From the IMG/VR virus record IMGVR_UViG_3300042465_003305, positions 1-31,679 of that record: DNA of 31,679 bases; one strand, 5' to 3'. Under the pieces are notes generated by a model. That model was not told where the DNA came from, made no database searches, and worked only from the letters and a program-made list of their open reading frames with translations. This DNA is from a virus. The position numbers and the translations under genes were made by a program. Positions 2,855-28,046 of the stretch are shown here, one piece after another. Each line of letters opens with the position of its first letter. Within the stretch, counting starts at the first letter, position 1.

Positions 2855-3250
2855 TTAGATGTCGTGGGCGACGACGCGCCACCGTTCGATCATCGTCCAC
2901 CCGTCGTCGTTGAATGAGGGTACACCGCGAGCGACGCGCGTCGCTCGAGCCGCGTCGAATCCGGTCACGGAGATCGGCGTAGCGAGCGCCGTCGAGATCG
3001 CGTCGGCGACGTTGTAAGCGTCGAGAGGCGAAGGCGTCGCGTACTGAATCTGGAACTCGACGTCGAGTTCGTGCTTCGTCAGTCCGCCGAAGAACGGCGT
3101 CGTCCGCACCTCGGTCGCCGCGAAGATCAGCAGCGGGAGCGTCTGGTTCGCCGGCGCGGAGTTGAGGTATATCTTCTGCCCGACGAGATCCGTGAGGCTT
3201 GCCGTCGCGTAGAGTCGCGTCTTCATCGCGTCGAGGATCGCCTTGCTCAT
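2855..3250 (-). CDS. Tail terminator / tail completion protein
   Basis: A 131-residue protein of the size and layout of DUF3168/gpU-type tail terminators. It opens with a helix (SKAILDAMKTRLYAT), continues with a segment typical of this family (TLPLLIFAATEVRTT), then FQIQYAT and DAYNVADAISTAL, and closes with a WRV strand. The start overlaps the preceding HK97 gp10-like gene by ATGA (3247-3250). Tail terminators cap the tail tube and join it to the head. Assignment uses family resemblance plus order. Confidence 0.75.
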   Translation of the reverse strand: MSKAILDAMKTRLYATASLTDLVGQKIYLNSAPANQTLPLLIFAATEVRTTPFFGGLTKHELDVEFQIQYATPSPLDAYNVADAISTALATPISVTGFDAARATRVARGVPSFNDDGWTMIERWRVVAHDI

Positions 3251-12427: not shown

Positions 12428-13606
12428 TCAGATGACCTTCAGGATGAGAGGACGACGCGAGCGACGCGCGAGGACCGCGAGCGCGAGAGCGCACACACCG
12501 TCATCGTGACCGACCGTCGCCTCGTAGGAGACTGTCCTCCCTGAGTATCGGAAGCCGAAGGACTCGAGTTCACTCCGAAGCCATCCGTCAGGCAAGCGGA
12601 TCTCCGCTGTCGTGATCGCGATTTGCAAGCCTTCCATGAGTTGCTGCTTGCTCTGGCTTGTGAACTTGAAGCCCTCGACGCGACGGCAGACCTTGCGAAG
12701 ATCCTCGACGATCGGATCGCCGACGCCAGTCGAGTCGATCTGCGCTGGCTTGTCGCTGATCATCCGAGCGAGGCGCTCGCGCGTGACATTCCAAGGCGCT
12801 TGCCATCGCTCGAGACGGCAGACGCGGCCCTCGGAATCGAGCGCGATGGCGACCGTCCAGTCCTGCGACTTCGCGAGGTCGACGCCCCAGCACTCCGGCT
12901 CGGCGGTCGAGAGAGGAGAGATGCAGGAGCGGATCGCGTTCAGGCCGAACGGGTTGCCTCCGTCCTCGGCCGGGATTCCCTCGATCTCCTGATCGGCGAC
13001 TTCCCTCGGCAGGCTCCTACGCATCGCCTCGACCTCAGCAGGATCGAGGAACGGATTCGCGCCCGAGCCTAGCCGGAATGCGGCCCACGCGCCACTCGTG
13101 TCGCCCTCGGCCTCAAGGTAGAGACGATGGAAGTCGCCGGTTCCCTTTGGCGTTCCCGCGAAGATCGCAGCGCCTTTCCGATCGGCGAGCGTCGGCCGGA
13201 TCGCAGCGTGCCAGATGCCGAGGAGGTTCGCGACGAAGCCAGCCTCGTCGACTGCCGCGAGATCGTAGAAGCGGCCGCGTCCTGCGTCTTCGTCCTCGAG
13301 CGTCCAGAAGTCGAGTGATCCGCCGGTCGCGAACTCCATCCGCTTCTCGACGCGATCGTGCCTCGCGATGATCGGCGCGAGCGCTCGCTCGATGTCGCGC
13401 GTCGGCTCGGCAAGATACTTGTATGACGGCGCGAACCACGCGCAGCGCTTGCCGCGAATCGCGGCATCCATCACGATGAACTCCTCAAACTTCGTCTTTC
13501 CCCAGCGTCGACCGATCTCGAGGACGTTGAAGCGTCGGAGCCTCCGATAGACGTCGAGTTGCGACGCATGGAGCGCGGACGCTGCGGTCGGGAATCGGAT
13601 CTTCAA
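12428..13606 (-). CDS. Terminase large subunit
   Basis: A 392-residue packaging motor. The ATPase carries Walker A GRRWGKT (32-38), Walker B YDLAAVDEA with D120/E121, and coupling motif FAGTPKG (149-155). The nuclease domain starts at GVDLAKSQDW (D243), continues with IDSTGVGDP (D291) and ends at VGHDDGVCALALA (D368/D369), giving the expected RNase H-like acidic triad. It pumps DNA through the portal and cuts the concatemer. The start overlaps the small subunit stop as ATGA. The length is slightly short for the family but all motifs are present. Confidence 0.95.
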   Translation of the reverse strand: MKIRFPTAASALHASQLDVYRRLRRFNVLEIGRRWGKTKFEEFIVMDAAIRGKRCAWFAPSYKYLAEPTRDIERALAPIIARHDRVEKRMEFATGGSLDFWTLEDEDAGRGRFYDLAAVDEAGFVANLLGIWHAAIRPTLADRKGAAIFAGTPKGTGDFHRLYLEAEGDTSGAWAAFRLGSGANPFLDPAEVEAMRRSLPREVADQEIEGIPAEDGGNPFGLNAIRSCISPLSTAEPECWGVDLAKSQDWTVAIALDSEGRVCRLERWQAPWNVTRERLARMISDKPAQIDSTGVGDPIVEDLRKVCRRVEGFKFTSQSKQQLMEGLQIAITTAEIRLPDGWLRSELESFGFRYSGRTVSYEATVGHDDGVCALALAVLARRSRRPLILKVI

Positions 13607-13944
13607 GCGGTGTCCGAGAGACGCGGTTTCGGAAGATCGAACGGCTCGATCGTGACCACCTCTTCGCGCCTCGTCTCGTCGATCTTGTCACGCTGGCCGA
13701 GGTACTGCTTGCCGAGCCAGATGAGCATCGGAACGGATCCTTCCTTCGCCTTCTCGTATTGCCACCGGCGAAGCGACATCCGCATCTCGTCGTGTCCCTT
13801 GTCGATCTCGGCGCGAGCGCGACGTTTGATCGTCATCTCGGAAACTCCGACGATCTTCGCAATCTCGGGAATCGTGCATCCGATTCGCGCGAGGGATTGC
13901 ACGAGAGAGAGATTGAACTCGACGCGAGGACGGCCCCTACTCAC
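13603..13944 (-). CDS. Terminase small subunit-like DNA-binding protein
   Basis: A 113-residue protein with an N-terminal helix-turn-helix (ARIGCTIPEIAKIVGVSEMTIKRRARAEIDKG, residues ~19-50), followed by a segment MLIWLGKQYLGQRDK that is typical of phage small terminases and their relatives. It lies immediately upstream of the large subunit and is coupled to it by ATGA. It would recognise packaging sites in phage DNA. It overlaps the methyltransferase end by 8 bp. Confidence 0.82.
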   Translation of the reverse strand: MSRGRPRVEFNLSLVQSLARIGCTIPEIAKIVGVSEMTIKRRARAEIDKGHDEMRMSLRRWQYEKAKEGSVPMLIWLGKQYLGQRDKIDETRREEVVTIEPFDLPKPRLSDTA

Positions 13945-16486: not shown

Positions 16487-17187
16487 CGAGTCACCTCCTG
16501 CCGAAAGTCGAGGTAGTCCATGTGCATCGATCTACTCGTGGTCCCTGCCGACTTGAGGATCATCGCGTTCATGCCTGCGTAAACCGTCGCGCCGCTTTGG
16601 AGCGCGAGATCGACCGTCGCCGCCGGAGTTCCATTGATGACGTAGACCGTCTTCGTCGCGTCTGCGTTCACGAACGCCTCGAGCGTGTACCACGTGCTCG
16701 CCGCGACGGTGATTCCGAGATCCGTCTGCGTTGGCAACCCGGTGTAGTCGACGGTGTACCCCTGCCACTTGCCCGAGTTGATGTTGTCTCGATAGCGGAA
16801 GTGAACGCCTGCTCCGTCCGTTACGGCCGTCGTCACGGTTCCGAATCCGACCTTGATGCCGTAGCGGTTCGTAGCGTCGGATAGGTTTGACGGAGTTCGG
16901 ATGACCGCGGTGAACGATAGACGCCCGAAGCCCGGAACGATCTGGTCCGAAACGGGAGAGATGATATTCGCGCGTCCGGTCGAGTTCGTCCCGGTTTCGA
17001 GCGTCGCGATCCCGTACCGATTCGACTGGACACCGAGCGTACCGAAGACCGTCGTAAACGATACGGATGCTCCGGTAGTTCCGCTCGTCGTCGTCGTGAA
17101 CGGCGCGGCCATCGCAAGTTCGGACGCTTGGAAGATCGAGCGGCGAGGATCGAAGAGATCGACTGGTTCCGGGACGATTCGGTTCAT
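16483..17187 (-). CDS. Concanavalin/LamG-like fibre or adhesin protein
   Basis: A 234-residue protein rich in Thr, Ser, Gly and Ala, beta-structured. It holds a jelly-roll pattern typical of LamG-like domains in phage fibres: GVQSNRYGIATLETGTN, RYGIKVGFGT, GKWQGYTVDYTGLP, ASTWYTLEAFVNADATKTVYVINGTPAATVD. These domains bind glycans or act as trimeric fibre heads. It is coupled to the HTH_17 protein upstream by ATGA. Location in a lysis/fibre/modification cluster, apart from the tail genes, suggests a moron-like or secondary adhesin. Confidence 0.72.
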   Translation of the reverse strand: MNRIVPEPVDLFDPRRSIFQASELAMAAPFTTTTSGTTGASVSFTTVFGTLGVQSNRYGIATLETGTNSTGRANIISPVSDQIVPGFGRLSFTAVIRTPSNLSDATNRYGIKVGFGTVTTAVTDGAGVHFRYRDNINSGKWQGYTVDYTGLPTQTDLGITVAASTWYTLEAFVNADATKTVYVINGTPAATVDLALQSGATVYAGMNAMILKSAGTTSRSMHMDYLDFRQEVTR

Positions 17188-17435
17188 CGCTTTCCTCGCG
17201 CTCGGTCAAAGCCCCACTCGCGCTCGAACGCTTCCATCGCGGACGGATGGACGCGTCGCTCGCGCGATCCGGGCAACTTGATTCCAACGAGACGACCTTC
17301 GTCGATCCACTTCGAGACGGTACGCATCGCGACGCCGAGACGCTTCGCGACGTCCCCCGTCGTCAGCCACCGGACGCCGAGTTCTCCTTCGACGTCGACC
17401 TTGCCGATCCTGCTTCTCGCCCTACTCCTCGACAT
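17184..17435 (-). CDS. Excisionase-like (HTH_17/MerR-type) DNA-binding protein
   Basis: An 83-residue protein with a winged-helix/MerR-like HTH: WLTTGDVAKRLGVAMRTVSKWIDEGRLVGIKLPGSRERRVHPSAMEAF (about residues 23-70). The pattern is that of HTH_17 (excisionase-type) domains. No integrase is present, so excision is unlikely; a transcriptional role over the late region is more plausible. The start ATG (17433-17435) overlaps the end of the lipoprotein gene by 14 bp. Confidence 0.85.
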   Translation of the reverse strand: MSRSRARSRIGKVDVEGELGVRWLTTGDVAKRLGVAMRTVSKWIDEGRLVGIKLPGSRERRVHPSAMEAFEREWGFDRARGKR

Positions 17436-17646
17436 AGGACGGCGGCACGATGAACGTACCCTCCGGGATCTCGACTTCGTTCGCCGAGAGAGTCCACTCG
17501 CCAGCCTCGCGGACGTAGACGCGACCGACAACGCCGGGACCGACTCGGATCGGCGAGGACTCAGGGACGAGGATCGTTCGAGGACCGCATCCGCTCGCGA
17601 ATCCGAGCGCCAGCGCGACGGAGTAGGTTCGGATCTTTCTCTGCAT
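17422..17646 (-). CDS. Phage lipoprotein, probable o-spanin (Rz1-like)
   Basis: A 74-residue protein with a lipoprotein signal: MQRKIRTYSVALALGFASGC, a basic start, a hydrophobic core and an ASGC lipobox with Cys20. The mature part (~55 residues) is short and rich in Pro, Val and Glu. The first 86 bp overlap the end of the upstream 55-residue gene in another frame, the arrangement of embedded Rz/Rz1 spanin pairs. O-spanins sit in the inner leaflet of the outer membrane and help disrupt it at lysis. A different lipoprotein role cannot be excluded. Confidence 0.72.
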   Translation of the reverse strand: MQRKIRTYSVALALGFASGCGPRTILVPESSPIRVGPGVVGRVYVREAGEWTLSANEVEIPEGTFIVPPSYVEE

Positions 17647-21159: not shown

Positions 21160-21497
21160 GGCCGTGCCTCCCATACTCGAGCGGATCGTCCGCTCCGTGT
21201 CTTCCTCGAGCCGTTCGCGACGATCGCCCCGGCTCGCATGAGTTGATTTATAGCAGCGCTCGCGCTCTGGTGCGTCATCTCGAGACGCTGCTCGATCTCG
21301 TCGCACGTCGCCGGAGACTGTTGGATCGAGACGAGGATCGCCGCGGCCTGCGTTCCGTCGCGCGTCGCGTATGCCGCGTCCTGCGTGTTCCATCTCGTCC
21401 GCTGTTGCGCCGTCGATCTCGGAGGATCGACGAGAGAGAAGAGCGAGTTCGGCGGCGGAGGATCGAGGTCGCGACGTCGGTATGCCTTGTCGCTCAT
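21156..21497 (-). CDS. Winged-helix DNA-binding protein
   Basis: A 113-residue protein. The N-terminal ~45 residues are Pro/Arg-rich and probably disordered. Residues ~50-110 form a winged helix: AAAILVSIQQSPATCDEIEQRLEMTHQSASAAINQLMRAGAIVANGSRKTRSGRSARVWEA, with the recognition helix around HQSASAAINQLMRAG and the wing at SRKTRSGRSARVW. This is the pattern of phage winged-helix proteins acting as transcription or replication factors. It overlaps both neighbours by ATGA. Confidence 0.82.
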   Translation of the reverse strand: MSDKAYRRRDLDPPPPNSLFSLVDPPRSTAQQRTRWNTQDAAYATRDGTQAAAILVSIQQSPATCDEIEQRLEMTHQSASAAINQLMRAGAIVANGSRKTRSGRSARVWEARP

Positions 21498-21802
21498 CGC
21501 TCGACCTCCGCGCATATCTGAACCAGAAGGACGAACGCTCCCGGAGAGATGAGGGTCTTCTTCTTCTGGATCAGAGAGAGATAGGTCGGAGAGAGTCCGC
21601 AGCGTTTCGCGAGACTGCGGAGAGATCCGCGACCCTTCGCGATTTTGACGGCTGTCGGTCCGTGCATCCGTCGAGCCTCCTCCGAATAGCAGATAGCGGA
21701 GACGATCTTCGAAGCGGAGGACGCGAGGACCGCGATTTCTCCTCGCGTCTTCGTCGAGAGGACGACGGGATTCTCGATCGACTTCGAGATTCTGCGGTTC
21801 AT
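21494..21802 (-). CDS. XRE-type helix-turn-helix protein
   Basis: A 102-residue protein with a basic N-terminus, a segment EEARRMHGPTAVKIAKGRGSLRSLAKRCGLSPTYLSLIQKKKTLISPGAFVLLV (about 41-94) and a Cro/CI-like HTH: SLRSLAKRCGLSPTYLSLIQKKK (60-82). It lies between the possible CsrA-like gene and the winged-helix gene, in one coupled cluster. It could be a transcriptional repressor or activator; no adjacent operator is obvious since it lies inside the operon. Confidence 0.8.
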   Translation of the reverse strand: MNRRISKSIENPVVLSTKTRGEIAVLASSASKIVSAICYSEEARRMHGPTAVKIAKGRGSLRSLAKRCGLSPTYLSLIQKKKTLISPGAFVLLVQICAEVER

Positions 21803-25071: not shown

Positions 25072-25434
25072 TCATGCCTTTGAGCCTCGCTCAGCGAACA
25101 CCAGCCTCGCGGCCCGATGGACAAGATCGAATCGGACTCGCTGGTCCGCAAGTTCCCACGCCAACTCTCGCCGGCGGATCGTCCGCACCGAGACGCGAAG
25201 CGCCTCGGCGAGCGCCGTCTTCGCCGGGGTGACGTGTCCAGGCATGAGGTCGAGAGGGATGCCCACCTCGACCAGCGCCCGGATCTCCTCAGGGATCGAC
25301 TCGTCGGCCCGGATCAGCCGCGCCACTCGCAGCGCCTCGGCGAGCCGGATCGGCCGGAAGACCCGAGGATCTTCCGGCCGGATTCCGACCTGCGAGCGGA
25401 TCGACACCGCGCCGGGAATCTCGACGCGCTTCAC
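25072..25434 (-). CDS. Small HTH-like early protein
   Basis: A 120-residue protein. The segment HVTPAKTALAEALRVSVRTIRRRELAWELADQRVRFDLV (about residues 67-105) has an HTH shape: a helix TALAEALRV, a turn S-V and a recognition-type helix TIRRRELAWEL. The first half (PEDPRVFRPIRLAEALRVARLIRADESIPEEIRALV) is also helical. It is coupled to the annealing protein by ATGA and ends at a clear terminator, so the two form a short operon. A regulatory or recombination-partner role is possible. Confidence 0.72.
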   Translation of the reverse strand: MKRVEIPGAVSIRSQVGIRPEDPRVFRPIRLAEALRVARLIRADESIPEEIRALVEVGIPLDLMPGHVTPAKTALAEALRVSVRTIRRRELAWELADQRVRFDLVHRAARLVFAERGSKA

Positions 25435-26345
25435 TTCGCGTCTCCGATGACCTCGAGGATCTCGAGGGTGCCGTTCGAGCGCTGACGCACCCGGACGAGA
25501 GAGTTGCAGGAGAACGCCTGCTGCGCCTCGAGGATCGACGCGACGCGCTCATCGAGGACGGCGAACGGCCGAGCCTCGTCTTCTTGGTCGATGCGCCAGA
25601 CGCGACGGCCGGACTTGCCCTCGACCACCGAGATCGGCGAGCGAGCGAGGATGACCCGCTCAGCGTCCGGCGTGACCGGGACCGCCGTCGTCTCGACGAC
25701 GGGAGCCGACGCGACCGGGACCGGCGAGAGCAAGTCCTCGTTGTCCTTCCGGCGCTCCTCGCGCGTCATCGCCTTCATCGGCTTCGGTTCTGGCTTCGCG
25801 GCCGGAGCGTGGAAGTCCTCGACCGCGACGGGCTTCGCGCCGGCAATCGAGTCGATCTCCGTCTCGTCCAGCATCGCAAGGCCGCAGATCGAGAGCGTTG
25901 CGCGGCGCTTGGATTTCGTCTCGCACTTCATGTAGGCGTTGGCAAGGTTCTCGCCTGCCAAGCCCTTGAGGTTGACGGCTCCAGTCGCGATGTCCTCGCG
26001 GCCGGATCGGTCGCGCACCCGCGCGGTCATGCAGAGGATGTCTCCTCGCATCTCCTGCTCGAGCGCGAGGACCGACACGCCGTGAATCTGCCGCAACTGC
26101 TCGGTCGCGGACTTCTTCGCGTACAACTGGACCTTGCCGTTGAGCGTGAGGTACTCGAACGGCTGCGTCAGCGGGTTGAGGCCGAGCGAGTCGCAGACCG
26201 CTTTGTACAAGGCGATCCGCTGACCCGGATCGAGTCGGCCGATGTCACCCGCGGCGATATACGCCTCGAGCGCCTTCGTTCCGGCAACGGCAAGCGAGTG
26301 GGTTTCGATCGCGGACGACGCGATCCCGTGAGATACGATAGACAT
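25431..26345 (-). CDS. RecT/Red-beta-like single-strand annealing protein (probable)
   Basis: A 304-residue protein. Residues ~38-170 carry a conserved phage pattern: DPGQRIALYKAVCDSLGLNPLTQPFEYLTLNGKVQLYAKKSATEQLRQIHGV, then CMTARVRDRSGREDIATGAVNLKGLAGENLANAYMKCETKSKRRATLSICGLAMLDE. The Asn-Pro...K-x-x-LY core and the ETKSKRRxTLxICG block recall RecT/Bet-type annealing proteins. Residues ~180-235 are Pro/Ala-rich, and the last ~65 form a separate small domain. It is the first gene of the early minus-strand operon, with an AAGGAG Shine-Dalgarno, and it faces a plus-strand gene. RusA in the same region fits a recombination role. Confidence 0.6.
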   Translation of the reverse strand: MSIVSHGIASSAIETHSLAVAGTKALEAYIAAGDIGRLDPGQRIALYKAVCDSLGLNPLTQPFEYLTLNGKVQLYAKKSATEQLRQIHGVSVLALEQEMRGDILCMTARVRDRSGREDIATGAVNLKGLAGENLANAYMKCETKSKRRATLSICGLAMLDETEIDSIAGAKPVAVEDFHAPAAKPEPKPMKAMTREERRKDNEDLLSPVPVASAPVVETTAVPVTPDAERVILARSPISVVEGKSGRRVWRIDQEDEARPFAVLDERVASILEAQQAFSCNSLVRVRQRSNGTLEILEVIGDAK

Positions 26346-26410
26346 GGAAGATGTCTCCTTCTGCGGACTTCGTGTCCGCTAGCGGACATCCTATCGGAAG
26401 AGGCTCCTCC
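26346..26410. promoter_or_regulatory. Divergent control region between the annealing gene and the lone plus-strand gene
   Basis: In 65 bp it holds the Shine-Dalgarno of the minus gene (AAGGAG, near 26357), an inverted pair GCGGAC-TTCGT-GTCCGC (26363-26379), the perfect palindrome at 26373-26388, and the Shine-Dalgarno GGAAGAGG (26396-26403) of the plus gene. A TATAGA -10-like element for the minus gene lies just inside the plus gene (complement around 26412-26417). Compact, divergent and dyad-rich, it is typical of a phage control switch. Confidence 0.6.
26373..26388. promoter_or_regulatory. Perfect 16-bp palindrome, candidate operator
   Basis: TGTCCGCT/AGCGGACA is fully self-complementary. 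A third GCGGAC half-site lies at 26363-26368, so two alternative dyads share the middle arm. It lies between the start codons of two divergent genes, where a dimeric repressor could control one or both. Confidence 0.65.
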
Positions 26411-26716
26411 GTGTCTATAGAAAATCCTCGGAATCTTCAGAAACTCGAAGCGCGGCGCGTTCGCGTCCACGTCGCCGCCGTCCTCGAGTCGGCCTGCATC
26501 CTCGAGACATCCGAGCGGAGCGCGACGCGCTGCGCGAACTTCCTCGCCGTCTCGTGGGAGTCGCTTGACCTGTACACGCTGGCTTTCGATCTCGCCGAGG
26601 AGGACGATCTTCGATTTCTCGTCGGGCAAGCGCGAGCCGCGATCCTCGCGGAACTCATCAAGCGATCAGAGCGTCGTCGATGTTCTCGGTGCCGGAGTAG
26701 TCCTGCGGAAGGCTAA
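26411..26716 (+). CDS. Lone plus-strand gene, candidate regulator
   Basis: The only gene I support on the plus strand (101 residues). I chose GTG 26411 because GGAAGAGG lies seven bases upstream; an ATG at 26351 would add 20 residues encoded over the palindrome. Codon choice (GTC, GCC, CTC, GAG, ATC) equals that of the confident genes. Shadow frames here are Arg/Ser-rich, whereas this protein is balanced and helical (VRVHVAAVLESACILETSERSATRCANFLAVSWESLDLYTLAFDLAEEDDLRFLVGQARAAILAELIKRSE). The last ~15 residues are Arg/Cys-rich and overlap the tail-fibre gene by 59 bp, end to end. No HTH is obvious. Its place suggests regulation of the early operon. Confidence 0.65.
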   Translation: MSIENPRNLQKLEARRVRVHVAAVLESACILETSERSATRCANFLAVSWESLDLYTLAFDLAEEDDLRFLVGQARAAILAELIKRSERRRCSRCRSSPAEG

Positions 26717-28046
26717 GTCCCTTGCCGTACATATCGAACAAGCGATCGAAGGCCCGTACGAATGCGCCCTCGTTGTTGTTCGTGAACGTGTACCGAGCGT
26801 TGTCGTCCGCGCTCCAGTCCGTCGATCCTGCGACGATCGCGAGCGCAGGACCGCCAGCCGCGATCGGCATCATCTCCGCGACGATGATCTCGTCGATGTA
26901 GACCGAATCGGTCGCGATCGCCGAAGTCGTCTCAACGACGAGATACACCTCGGATGGAATGACTCGCGGAGAGCGCACCGTCGCCGAGTAGATGAGGAAC
27001 GAAGTCGTCGTCGCCGCGATCGACTGCGAGAGGAAGAACTCGTTTGATGTGCCGATGATCGTGCCGCTCGAGTCCTGCACGCTGATCCGAAGCGTTCCAG
27101 TCGCCGTCGTGTCCTTCTTGATCGCGACCGCGATGAGGTACGGCCGATCCGGCGTGAGCCGTCCGAGCGTTCCGTCGAAGTCCGCGAGACGCTGGCGGAT
27201 CTTGAAGACGCTTCCAGTCACCGCGAGTTTCAGCGACTTCGAACCTCGGAAGACATTCGCCGCCGTCGTCTCCGTGAGGAACTCCGTGCCAGCCGTTCCG
27301 CTCGAGACGGTGAAGCGATCCGGTAGGTTTGAGGTCTGGTCCTCGAGGTCGGAGTTGTGGAGGATGTTCTGTCCGGGGATTCCGTTGTCCACGCTCGCGC
27401 AGCACGTCACGAGACGCATCAACGTTCCGCTCCCTCCGGGGAATCGGTAGTCAAGCCCTTGGTATGCCGGCTGACCTCGGATCTCGAATATCTCCGAGCC
27501 GCGCGAGATCGCGCCGGACACGCCGTCTTGAACGCATCGCGCTTCGAGGACTTCCGTGCGGATGTTCGGCCAGTCGGCCGTCGAGCCGAGCAGGATGTGC
27601 GGAGCCTCGAAGTAGTAGTAGAACTTCCCGTTGCCGTTGTTGCTCGCTCCGACCGCGAGACTCGACTTTGTGATCGTCGTTCCGTCGACGGTCTTCGTGT
27701 CCGCGTCCATCTGGCGGATGAGCCAGATCAGCGCCTCGCGGATCTCCTTTCGGACCATCGTGTTCGTCGCACCGGATGCGATCGCCTCTGCGTAGCACAT
27801 CTCGAGGATCGTGCGCTCAGCCGCGGCTCGGACGTCGTTCAGCACGTTTCCCGCCTCGGCGATCCGTCCCTCGATGCCACCGGAAAGCACGTCGATCATC
27901 CAAGCATCGCTCGAGGAGTACTCGGCTTGCACGTTCGCGAGGAGCGTCTTGAGGTTGTTCTGGTGCGTCCTCACCTGATCCATCATGTAGACCAGAGCGC
28001 CGAGTCGCGTGAAGAGTCCGCCAGTTCCGGTGTAGGTGAGTGCCAT
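26658..28046 (-). CDS. Tail fibre/receptor-binding type protein with a carbohydrate-binding-like module
   Basis: A 462-residue protein. The N-terminus (MALTYTGTGGLFTRLGALVYMMDQVRTHQNNLKTLLANVQAEY) is a recurrent start in distal virion proteins of some phages. Residues ~10-200 are mixed helical. Residues ~220-400 have a jelly-roll pattern like CBM4/9 modules (NILHNSDLEDQTSNLPDRFTV, RGSKSLKLAVTGSVFKIRQRL, PDRPYLIAVAIKK, SVYIDEIIVAEM). The C-terminal part follows. It is the last gene of the late transcript and probably binds the host surface. Its end overlaps the plus-strand gene. Confidence 0.72.
   Translation of the reverse strand: MALTYTGTGGLFTRLGALVYMMDQVRTHQNNLKTLLANVQAEYSSSDAWMIDVLSGGIEGRIAEAGNVLNDVRAAAERTILEMCYAEAIASGATNTMVRKEIREALIWLIRQMDADTKTVDGTTITKSSLAVGASNNGNGKFYYYFEAPHILLGSTADWPNIRTEVLEARCVQDGVSGAISRGSEIFEIRGQPAYQGLDYRFPGGSGTLMRLVTCCASVDNGIPGQNILHNSDLEDQTSNLPDRFTVSSGTAGTEFLTETTAANVFRGSKSLKLAVTGSVFKIRQRLADFDGTLGRLTPDRPYLIAVAIKKDTTATGTLRISVQDSSGTIIGTSNEFFLSQSIAATTTSFLIYSATVRSPRVIPSEVYLVVETTSAIATDSVYIDEIIVAEMMPIAAGGPALAIVAGSTDWSADDNARYTFTNNNEGAFVRAFDRLFDMYGKGLSLPQDYSGTENIDDALIA

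Follow-up and report, generated by a model that had tools for sequence, protein, structure and literature searches.

A conserved small gene divergent from an early-strand leader hairpin: a probable early-control module in an uncultured tailed-phage lineage

The window analysed here is the whole 31,679-nucleotide virus record IMGVR_UViG_3300042465_003305. Its clear genes, as judged by family matches and open reading frame layout, all lie on the minus strand, with the exception of one small rightward gene that we call P0001. The late block extends from the terminase (12428-13944) across the contig ends to 26658, and the early block starts at 26345; we infer this circular order of the two blocks from gene content. 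The junction between them has the following features:

25431-26345, minus strand: P0002, the first early gene, encoding a probable Rad52-like single-strand annealing protein (weak AF2 model, pLDDT 67.7)
26354-26360, minus strand: Shine-Dalgarno sequence AAGGAGA, belonging to P0002, with 2 nt between it and the upstream hairpin
26363-26379, minus strand: predicted RNA hairpin GCGGAC-ACGAA-GUCCGC, with which the early transcript is inferred to begin; its stem covaries, and its closing C-G pair and loop G are conserved
26373-26388, unstranded: perfect 16-bp palindrome TGTCCGCTAGCGGACA, a candidate DNA operator; in the nearest relatives, invariance is limited to the outer TGTC-N8-GACA
26388-26417, minus strand: early leftward promoter-like site, with -35 TAGACA (26417-26412), an 18-nt spacer and -10 TAGGAT (26393-26388)
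26411-26716, plus strand: P0001, a conserved gene for a predicted all-helical protein (GTG start, 101 aa), supported by conservation, dN/dS and an AF2 model with pLDDT 82.5
26658-26716, unstranded: tail-to-tail overlap of P0001 and P0003, 59 bp (7-100 bp in relatives)
26658-28046, minus strand: P0003, a convergent late gene of 462 aa, conserved at this site in all relatives

An earlier reading, made from the sequence alone, had described a 101-codon plus-strand frame from a GTG at 26411 to a stop at 26716, a 65-bp gap (26346-26410) up to the ATG of the divergent early gene, a 59-bp end overlap with the convergent late gene, the perfect palindrome, and an extra half-site, GCGGAC, at 26363-26368. 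All of these are confirmed. That reading had also pointed to the codon bias of P0001, which by itself does not prove the frame: an antisense frame scores 0.34 against 0.35, and a score this indecisive would fit an open frame that arose by chance in GC-rich DNA. It had further staked the gene on a reading frame conserved in relatives, and the frame is kept in more than 40 loci, which refutes the chance interpretation and leaves it with next to no probability. Homologues of P0001, confirmed by tblastn, occur in 43-46 viral loci (33 distinct sequences, 42-99% identical), and each of 16 long records has a single copy. The plus-strand frame is free of stops in 25 of 25 loci, and each of the other five frames is interrupted in 11-21 of them; dN/dS is 0.2-0.5, and variability is greatest at third codon positions. 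Conservation of the frame, synteny and purifying selection all indicate that P0001 is a real gene, and its GTG start is supported by the ATG that many relatives have at this position. No homologue of the P0001 protein or of P0003 was found in cultured phages. A single P0001 match among GTDB genomes comes from a metagenome-assembled genome labelled Rhodobacteraceae, which does not settle the host; the carriers are an uncultured tailed-phage lineage.

The gene order is conserved too. In every relative P0001 adjoins and converges on a P0003 homologue (55-99% identical), and it is divergent from the early operon in all relatives whose contig reaches that far. The description of the locus as having the layout of a control switch is supported by this conserved divergent pair and by the single copy of P0001. 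Calling the early block a recombination operon is likewise reasonable, because the best matches of the P0002 model are RAD52 structures (E 8e-4, probability 0.99-1.00, from a weak model with pLDDT 68); P0002 is probably a Rad52-like single-strand annealing protein. Distant relatives have unrelated sequence in place of the N-terminal half of P0002 and retain its C-terminal part. In other phages with P0002-like genes (L039 and L040), the sequence compared holds no member of the P0001 family, and the upstream layout is unrelated. In many relatives (L042, L061-L063, L065-L067, L069, L071, L074, L076, L079 and L081-L083) the early operon opens, directly after the leader hairpin, with a peptide of 27-34 aa that is apparently single-membrane-spanning (e.g., MPEWDLTPLVVAAVVFGPVLVATLFGKGARDE) and mostly ends in ..DE; the window is without it, and its hairpin leads directly to P0002. 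Tyrosine and serine integrases (PF00589, PF00239) were found in none of 16 records (the window and 15 relatives, some of which may be incomplete), and a lysogeny switch is therefore unlikely, although plasmid-like lysogeny remains compatible. Two helix-turn-helix (HTH) genes of the window, at 17184-17531 and 21494-21802 on the minus strand, were considered as the source of a cognate factor and rejected, as they are present in only 6 and 2 of 15 relatives, respectively.

The putative early promoter overlaps the start of P0001. The sigma-70-like pattern TAGACA-18-TAGGAT was found once against 0.1 expected, as a consensus match only; its -35 box overlaps the P0001 GTG, and the end of its -10 box runs into the palindrome. 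Such a promoter would start early transcription at about 26380-26381. In most leaders checked, the first hairpin starts 7-8 nt after the -10 box (range 5-10, with the boxes positioned by eye), a spacing that would place the beginning of the hairpin at about +1 or +2. Thus placed, the hairpin probably forms the 5' terminus of the early mRNA and lies just upstream of the Shine-Dalgarno sequence. As for P0001 itself, the good Shine-Dalgarno sequence attributed to it holds for the window's clade, which has an SD-like GGAAGAGG at 26396-26403, but not for the relatives, where it is not conserved. A -10-like TANNNT lies 6-9 nt before the P0001 start in 10 of 12 distant relatives (0.9 expected) and is missing from the window's clade, which suggests that the P0001 mRNA is near-leaderless in the distant relatives.

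The palindrome was the centre of the original proposal, namely a DNA operator within a control switch. By itself, a perfect 16-bp palindrome is unremarkable here, because the window has two more (2930-2945 and 3054-3069, spanning ~140 bp inside the late block). It is also perfect only in the closest relatives of the window, so that the expectation of finding both gene and palindrome in relatives held for the gene, present in all of them in the same layout, and failed for the palindrome beyond those closest relatives. In the 12 leaders nearest to the window, TGTC and GACA are invariant and the eight bases between them vary, although this is weak evidence for leaders that average 86% identity; in more distant leaders, both the spacing and the centre of TGTC-N8-GACA change. 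Another dyad, GACA-N3-TGTC, is kept in sequence in most distant leaders. Because its imperfect pairs show no preference for the early strand, as judged by eye, this dyad could be acting as DNA. Full operator elements elsewhere in the window do not exceed chance, and the loose pattern GGACANNNTGTCC with two mismatches gives 20 sites against 12 expected, all poor and scattered in coding sequence. Perfect copies in relatives amount to essentially one per record; one record, that of L067, has a second exact CGGACACGGTGTCCG (L126:501-515), off the early promoter and apparently within coding sequence.

On the one hand, several of these features are those of a classical switch, in which P0001 or another phage protein would be a DNA repressor bound to TGTC-N8-GACA at 26373-26388. 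The palindrome extends from the -10 box across the inferred start site, the invariant TGTC lies upstream of that start and hence outside the RNA, GACA-N3-TGTC persists at a distance, and the near-leaderless appearance of distant P0001 genes recalls lambda cI, whose transcript from PRM is of the leaderless type. More generally, in the CI/Cro-type switches of lambda, TP901-1, phage 13 and PY54 a small gene likewise faces away from the early operon over a short gap, with a dyad at the early start site. On the other hand, the palindrome's centre is not kept and its spacing shifts between lineages, there is a single site only, no HTH was recognised in P0001, and the 16 records are without an integrase; unlike in the CI/Cro-type switches, the dyad here is conserved mainly as an RNA hairpin. 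We consider repression through DNA unlikely.

What is kept throughout the relatives (24 distinct leaders) is the dyad 26363-26379, made up of the extra half-site and the left arm of the palindrome. On the evidence of these leaders, the palindrome is mainly one arm of a conserved early-strand RNA hairpin, rather than the conserved element itself; a DNA operator may still exist at the invariant TGTC-N8-GACA of the 12 nearest leaders, but the element kept throughout is the RNA hairpin. In the 24 aligned hairpins, 98% of stem cells are paired, a percentage that is biased upward by an alignment centred on the hairpins; the invariance of the loop and the strand bias of the wobbles are unaffected by this. 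Five of the six pairs change on both sides, and covariation is 0.915, compared with 0.243 in shuffled alignments and at most 0.16 in slid registers, in sequences that are related and not independent. Neither the closing C-G pair nor the G at the third loop position varies in these hairpins. The alignment has four standard pairs that are not Watson-Crick, each of them G.U in the early-strand RNA, where the other strand would give A.C. Compensatory stem changes and strand-specific wobbles of this kind are what is expected of a structured RNA. Hairpins with these features occur no farther than 36 nt from the Shine-Dalgarno sequence in 23 of the 24 leaders (0.56 expected from shuffles), and the early strand of the window has just one such combination of hairpin and ribosome-binding site. 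Rfam matched nothing at the gathering threshold in seven sources, and the window region also gave no hit when the cutoff was E<=1.

The loop is ACGAA in the window and, among relatives, ACGGA, AUGGU, GUGGU, AGGUC or AUGAU. Many distant leaders have two tandem hairpins, the first usually with GACA-N3-TGTC and the second with the conserved loop. The hairpin is retained whether the first early gene is the small membrane peptide or P0002, and also where the N-terminal half of P0002 is swapped; it therefore belongs to the promoter/P0001 side of the locus.

A conserved hairpin in this position might act entirely in cis, as a 5'-terminal stem-loop that stabilises the early mRNA or shapes ribosome access, leaving P0001 to an unrelated role such as host take-over or counter-defence. 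The hairpin starts at about +2, a geometry known to protect mRNA 5' ends (work listed among the references of PMC3997798), its stems vary freely, and the P0001 protein has no family match. The protecting stem-loops of ompA and papA similarly lie within ~2 nt of the inferred 5' end. In contrast to ompA and papA, however, a loop G and its closing pair are conserved here, at one promoter of one phage lineage. These invariant bases exceed the needs of plain stability, as does the second hairpin added before the conserved-loop one in many distant leaders, and the strict adjacency of gene and leader also counts against an action purely in cis. We rate this explanation as possible, though less likely than not.

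Turning to the protein, searches of Pfam, NCBIfam, PADLOC and PDB sequences with P0001 or its alignment gave no usable match, and PHROGs gave a weak match to the unnamed phrog_31629 (E 0.0009-0.006, two members). The AF2 model is all-helical (helices at 6-13, 15-31, 37-40, 49-61 and 65-95), and Foldseek against PDB and BFVD, together with VIA-align, gave no significant fold match (best E ~0.6-1, and Z ~5, a level common among helical bundles). The earlier statement that P0001 has no recognisable DNA-binding motif is supported by these searches; no HTH family or significant fold was matched, and the absence of a match does not exclude an HTH. Invariant residues include K11, R16, R36, W49, D53-L-Y-T56, D60, R68 and Q73-A-R75. 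The N-terminal half is basic across the family (mean charge +5, 17% Arg), although its charge is only +2 in the window protein; the N-terminal helix is arginine-rich and conserved, and the core after W49 is acidic (family mean charge -3.3). This charge pattern would suit nucleic-acid binding, and P0001 is a putative regulator.

Taken together, P0001 and the early leader probably form a divergent early-control module. As to how it works, we tentatively favor an action of P0001 through the early leader RNA, alone or with DNA, that tunes the early operon. The early transcript would begin at the leader hairpin, and the two transcription units would compete where the early promoter overlaps the P0001 start. 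The P0001 protein would then act at this leader, with binding to the hairpin as the most likely route, and might also engage the DNA dyad at the start site, so that the early operon would be turned down as infection proceeds; late transcription would run against P0001, which is placed convergently with P0003. The syntenic gene, the covarying hairpin and the arginine-rich, mostly positive N-terminal half all speak for an action on the leader. Against it, neither family nor fold searches gave a match that would indicate RNA or DNA binding, the N-terminal half of the window protein is only +2, and gene and hairpin may occur together simply because they share position and descent. Moreover, the loops differ at most positions, and a single sequence-specific reader is not obvious. 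More specifically, the P0001 proteins could be a new family of very small helical proteins that recognise a hairpin at the start of the opposing early mRNA, one whose loop is closed by C-G and centred on G, in what would be an RNA-acting divergent switch; we estimate this to be somewhat unlikely.

The leader and P0001 were compared with known RNA-based systems and are not matched as members of the gp43, lambda N or CsrA systems. A similar layout is that of the T4/RB69 gp43 operator, where a hairpin with conserved loop residues likewise directly precedes the ribosome-binding site of an early replication/recombination gene. Through this hairpin, T4 gp43 regulates its own mRNA (PMC3014915); there, the polymerase controls its own message, whereas here the candidate is a tiny divergent protein whose binding is putative. 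A minority of leaders have ANGGA or AGGA in a C-G-closed loop, as in CsrA/RsmA hairpins. However, the CsrA consensus has a fully conserved GGA in the loop (PMC4347634), and GGA is absent from the window loop (ACGAA) and from many relatives (AUGAU, AGGUC, GUGGU); the idea of a CsrA target was dropped on account of the window loop. Lambda N binds NUT RNA via an arginine-rich motif (PMC4496710), and the hairpins at the start of the early operon, in tandem in many distant leaders, might similarly be an antitermination signal (lambda nut/boxB-like or HK022 put-like) with the arginine-rich conserved helix of P0001 marking an N-like factor. Yet P0001 lies outside the early operon, the hairpin abuts the ribosome-binding site, and the leader has no Rfam match; the likeness to N/boxB is confined to the arginine-rich conserved N-terminal helix, binding to the leader hairpin being hypothetical, and we regard antitermination as very improbable.

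The P0001 family is unmatched in the libraries searched and the RNA element is absent from Rfam, and both occur at one conserved control point. The proposed action on the leader makes a sharp, testable prediction, namely binding of the P0001 protein to the hairpin of the early leader. Were it to hold, this would be a divergent phage switch that works through RNA instead of a DNA operator.

Apart from this locus, the two contig ends (1-447 and 30850-31572) code for similar sequence. They hold copies of one late gene that have diverged, as if the record had been cut amid tandem paralogues.
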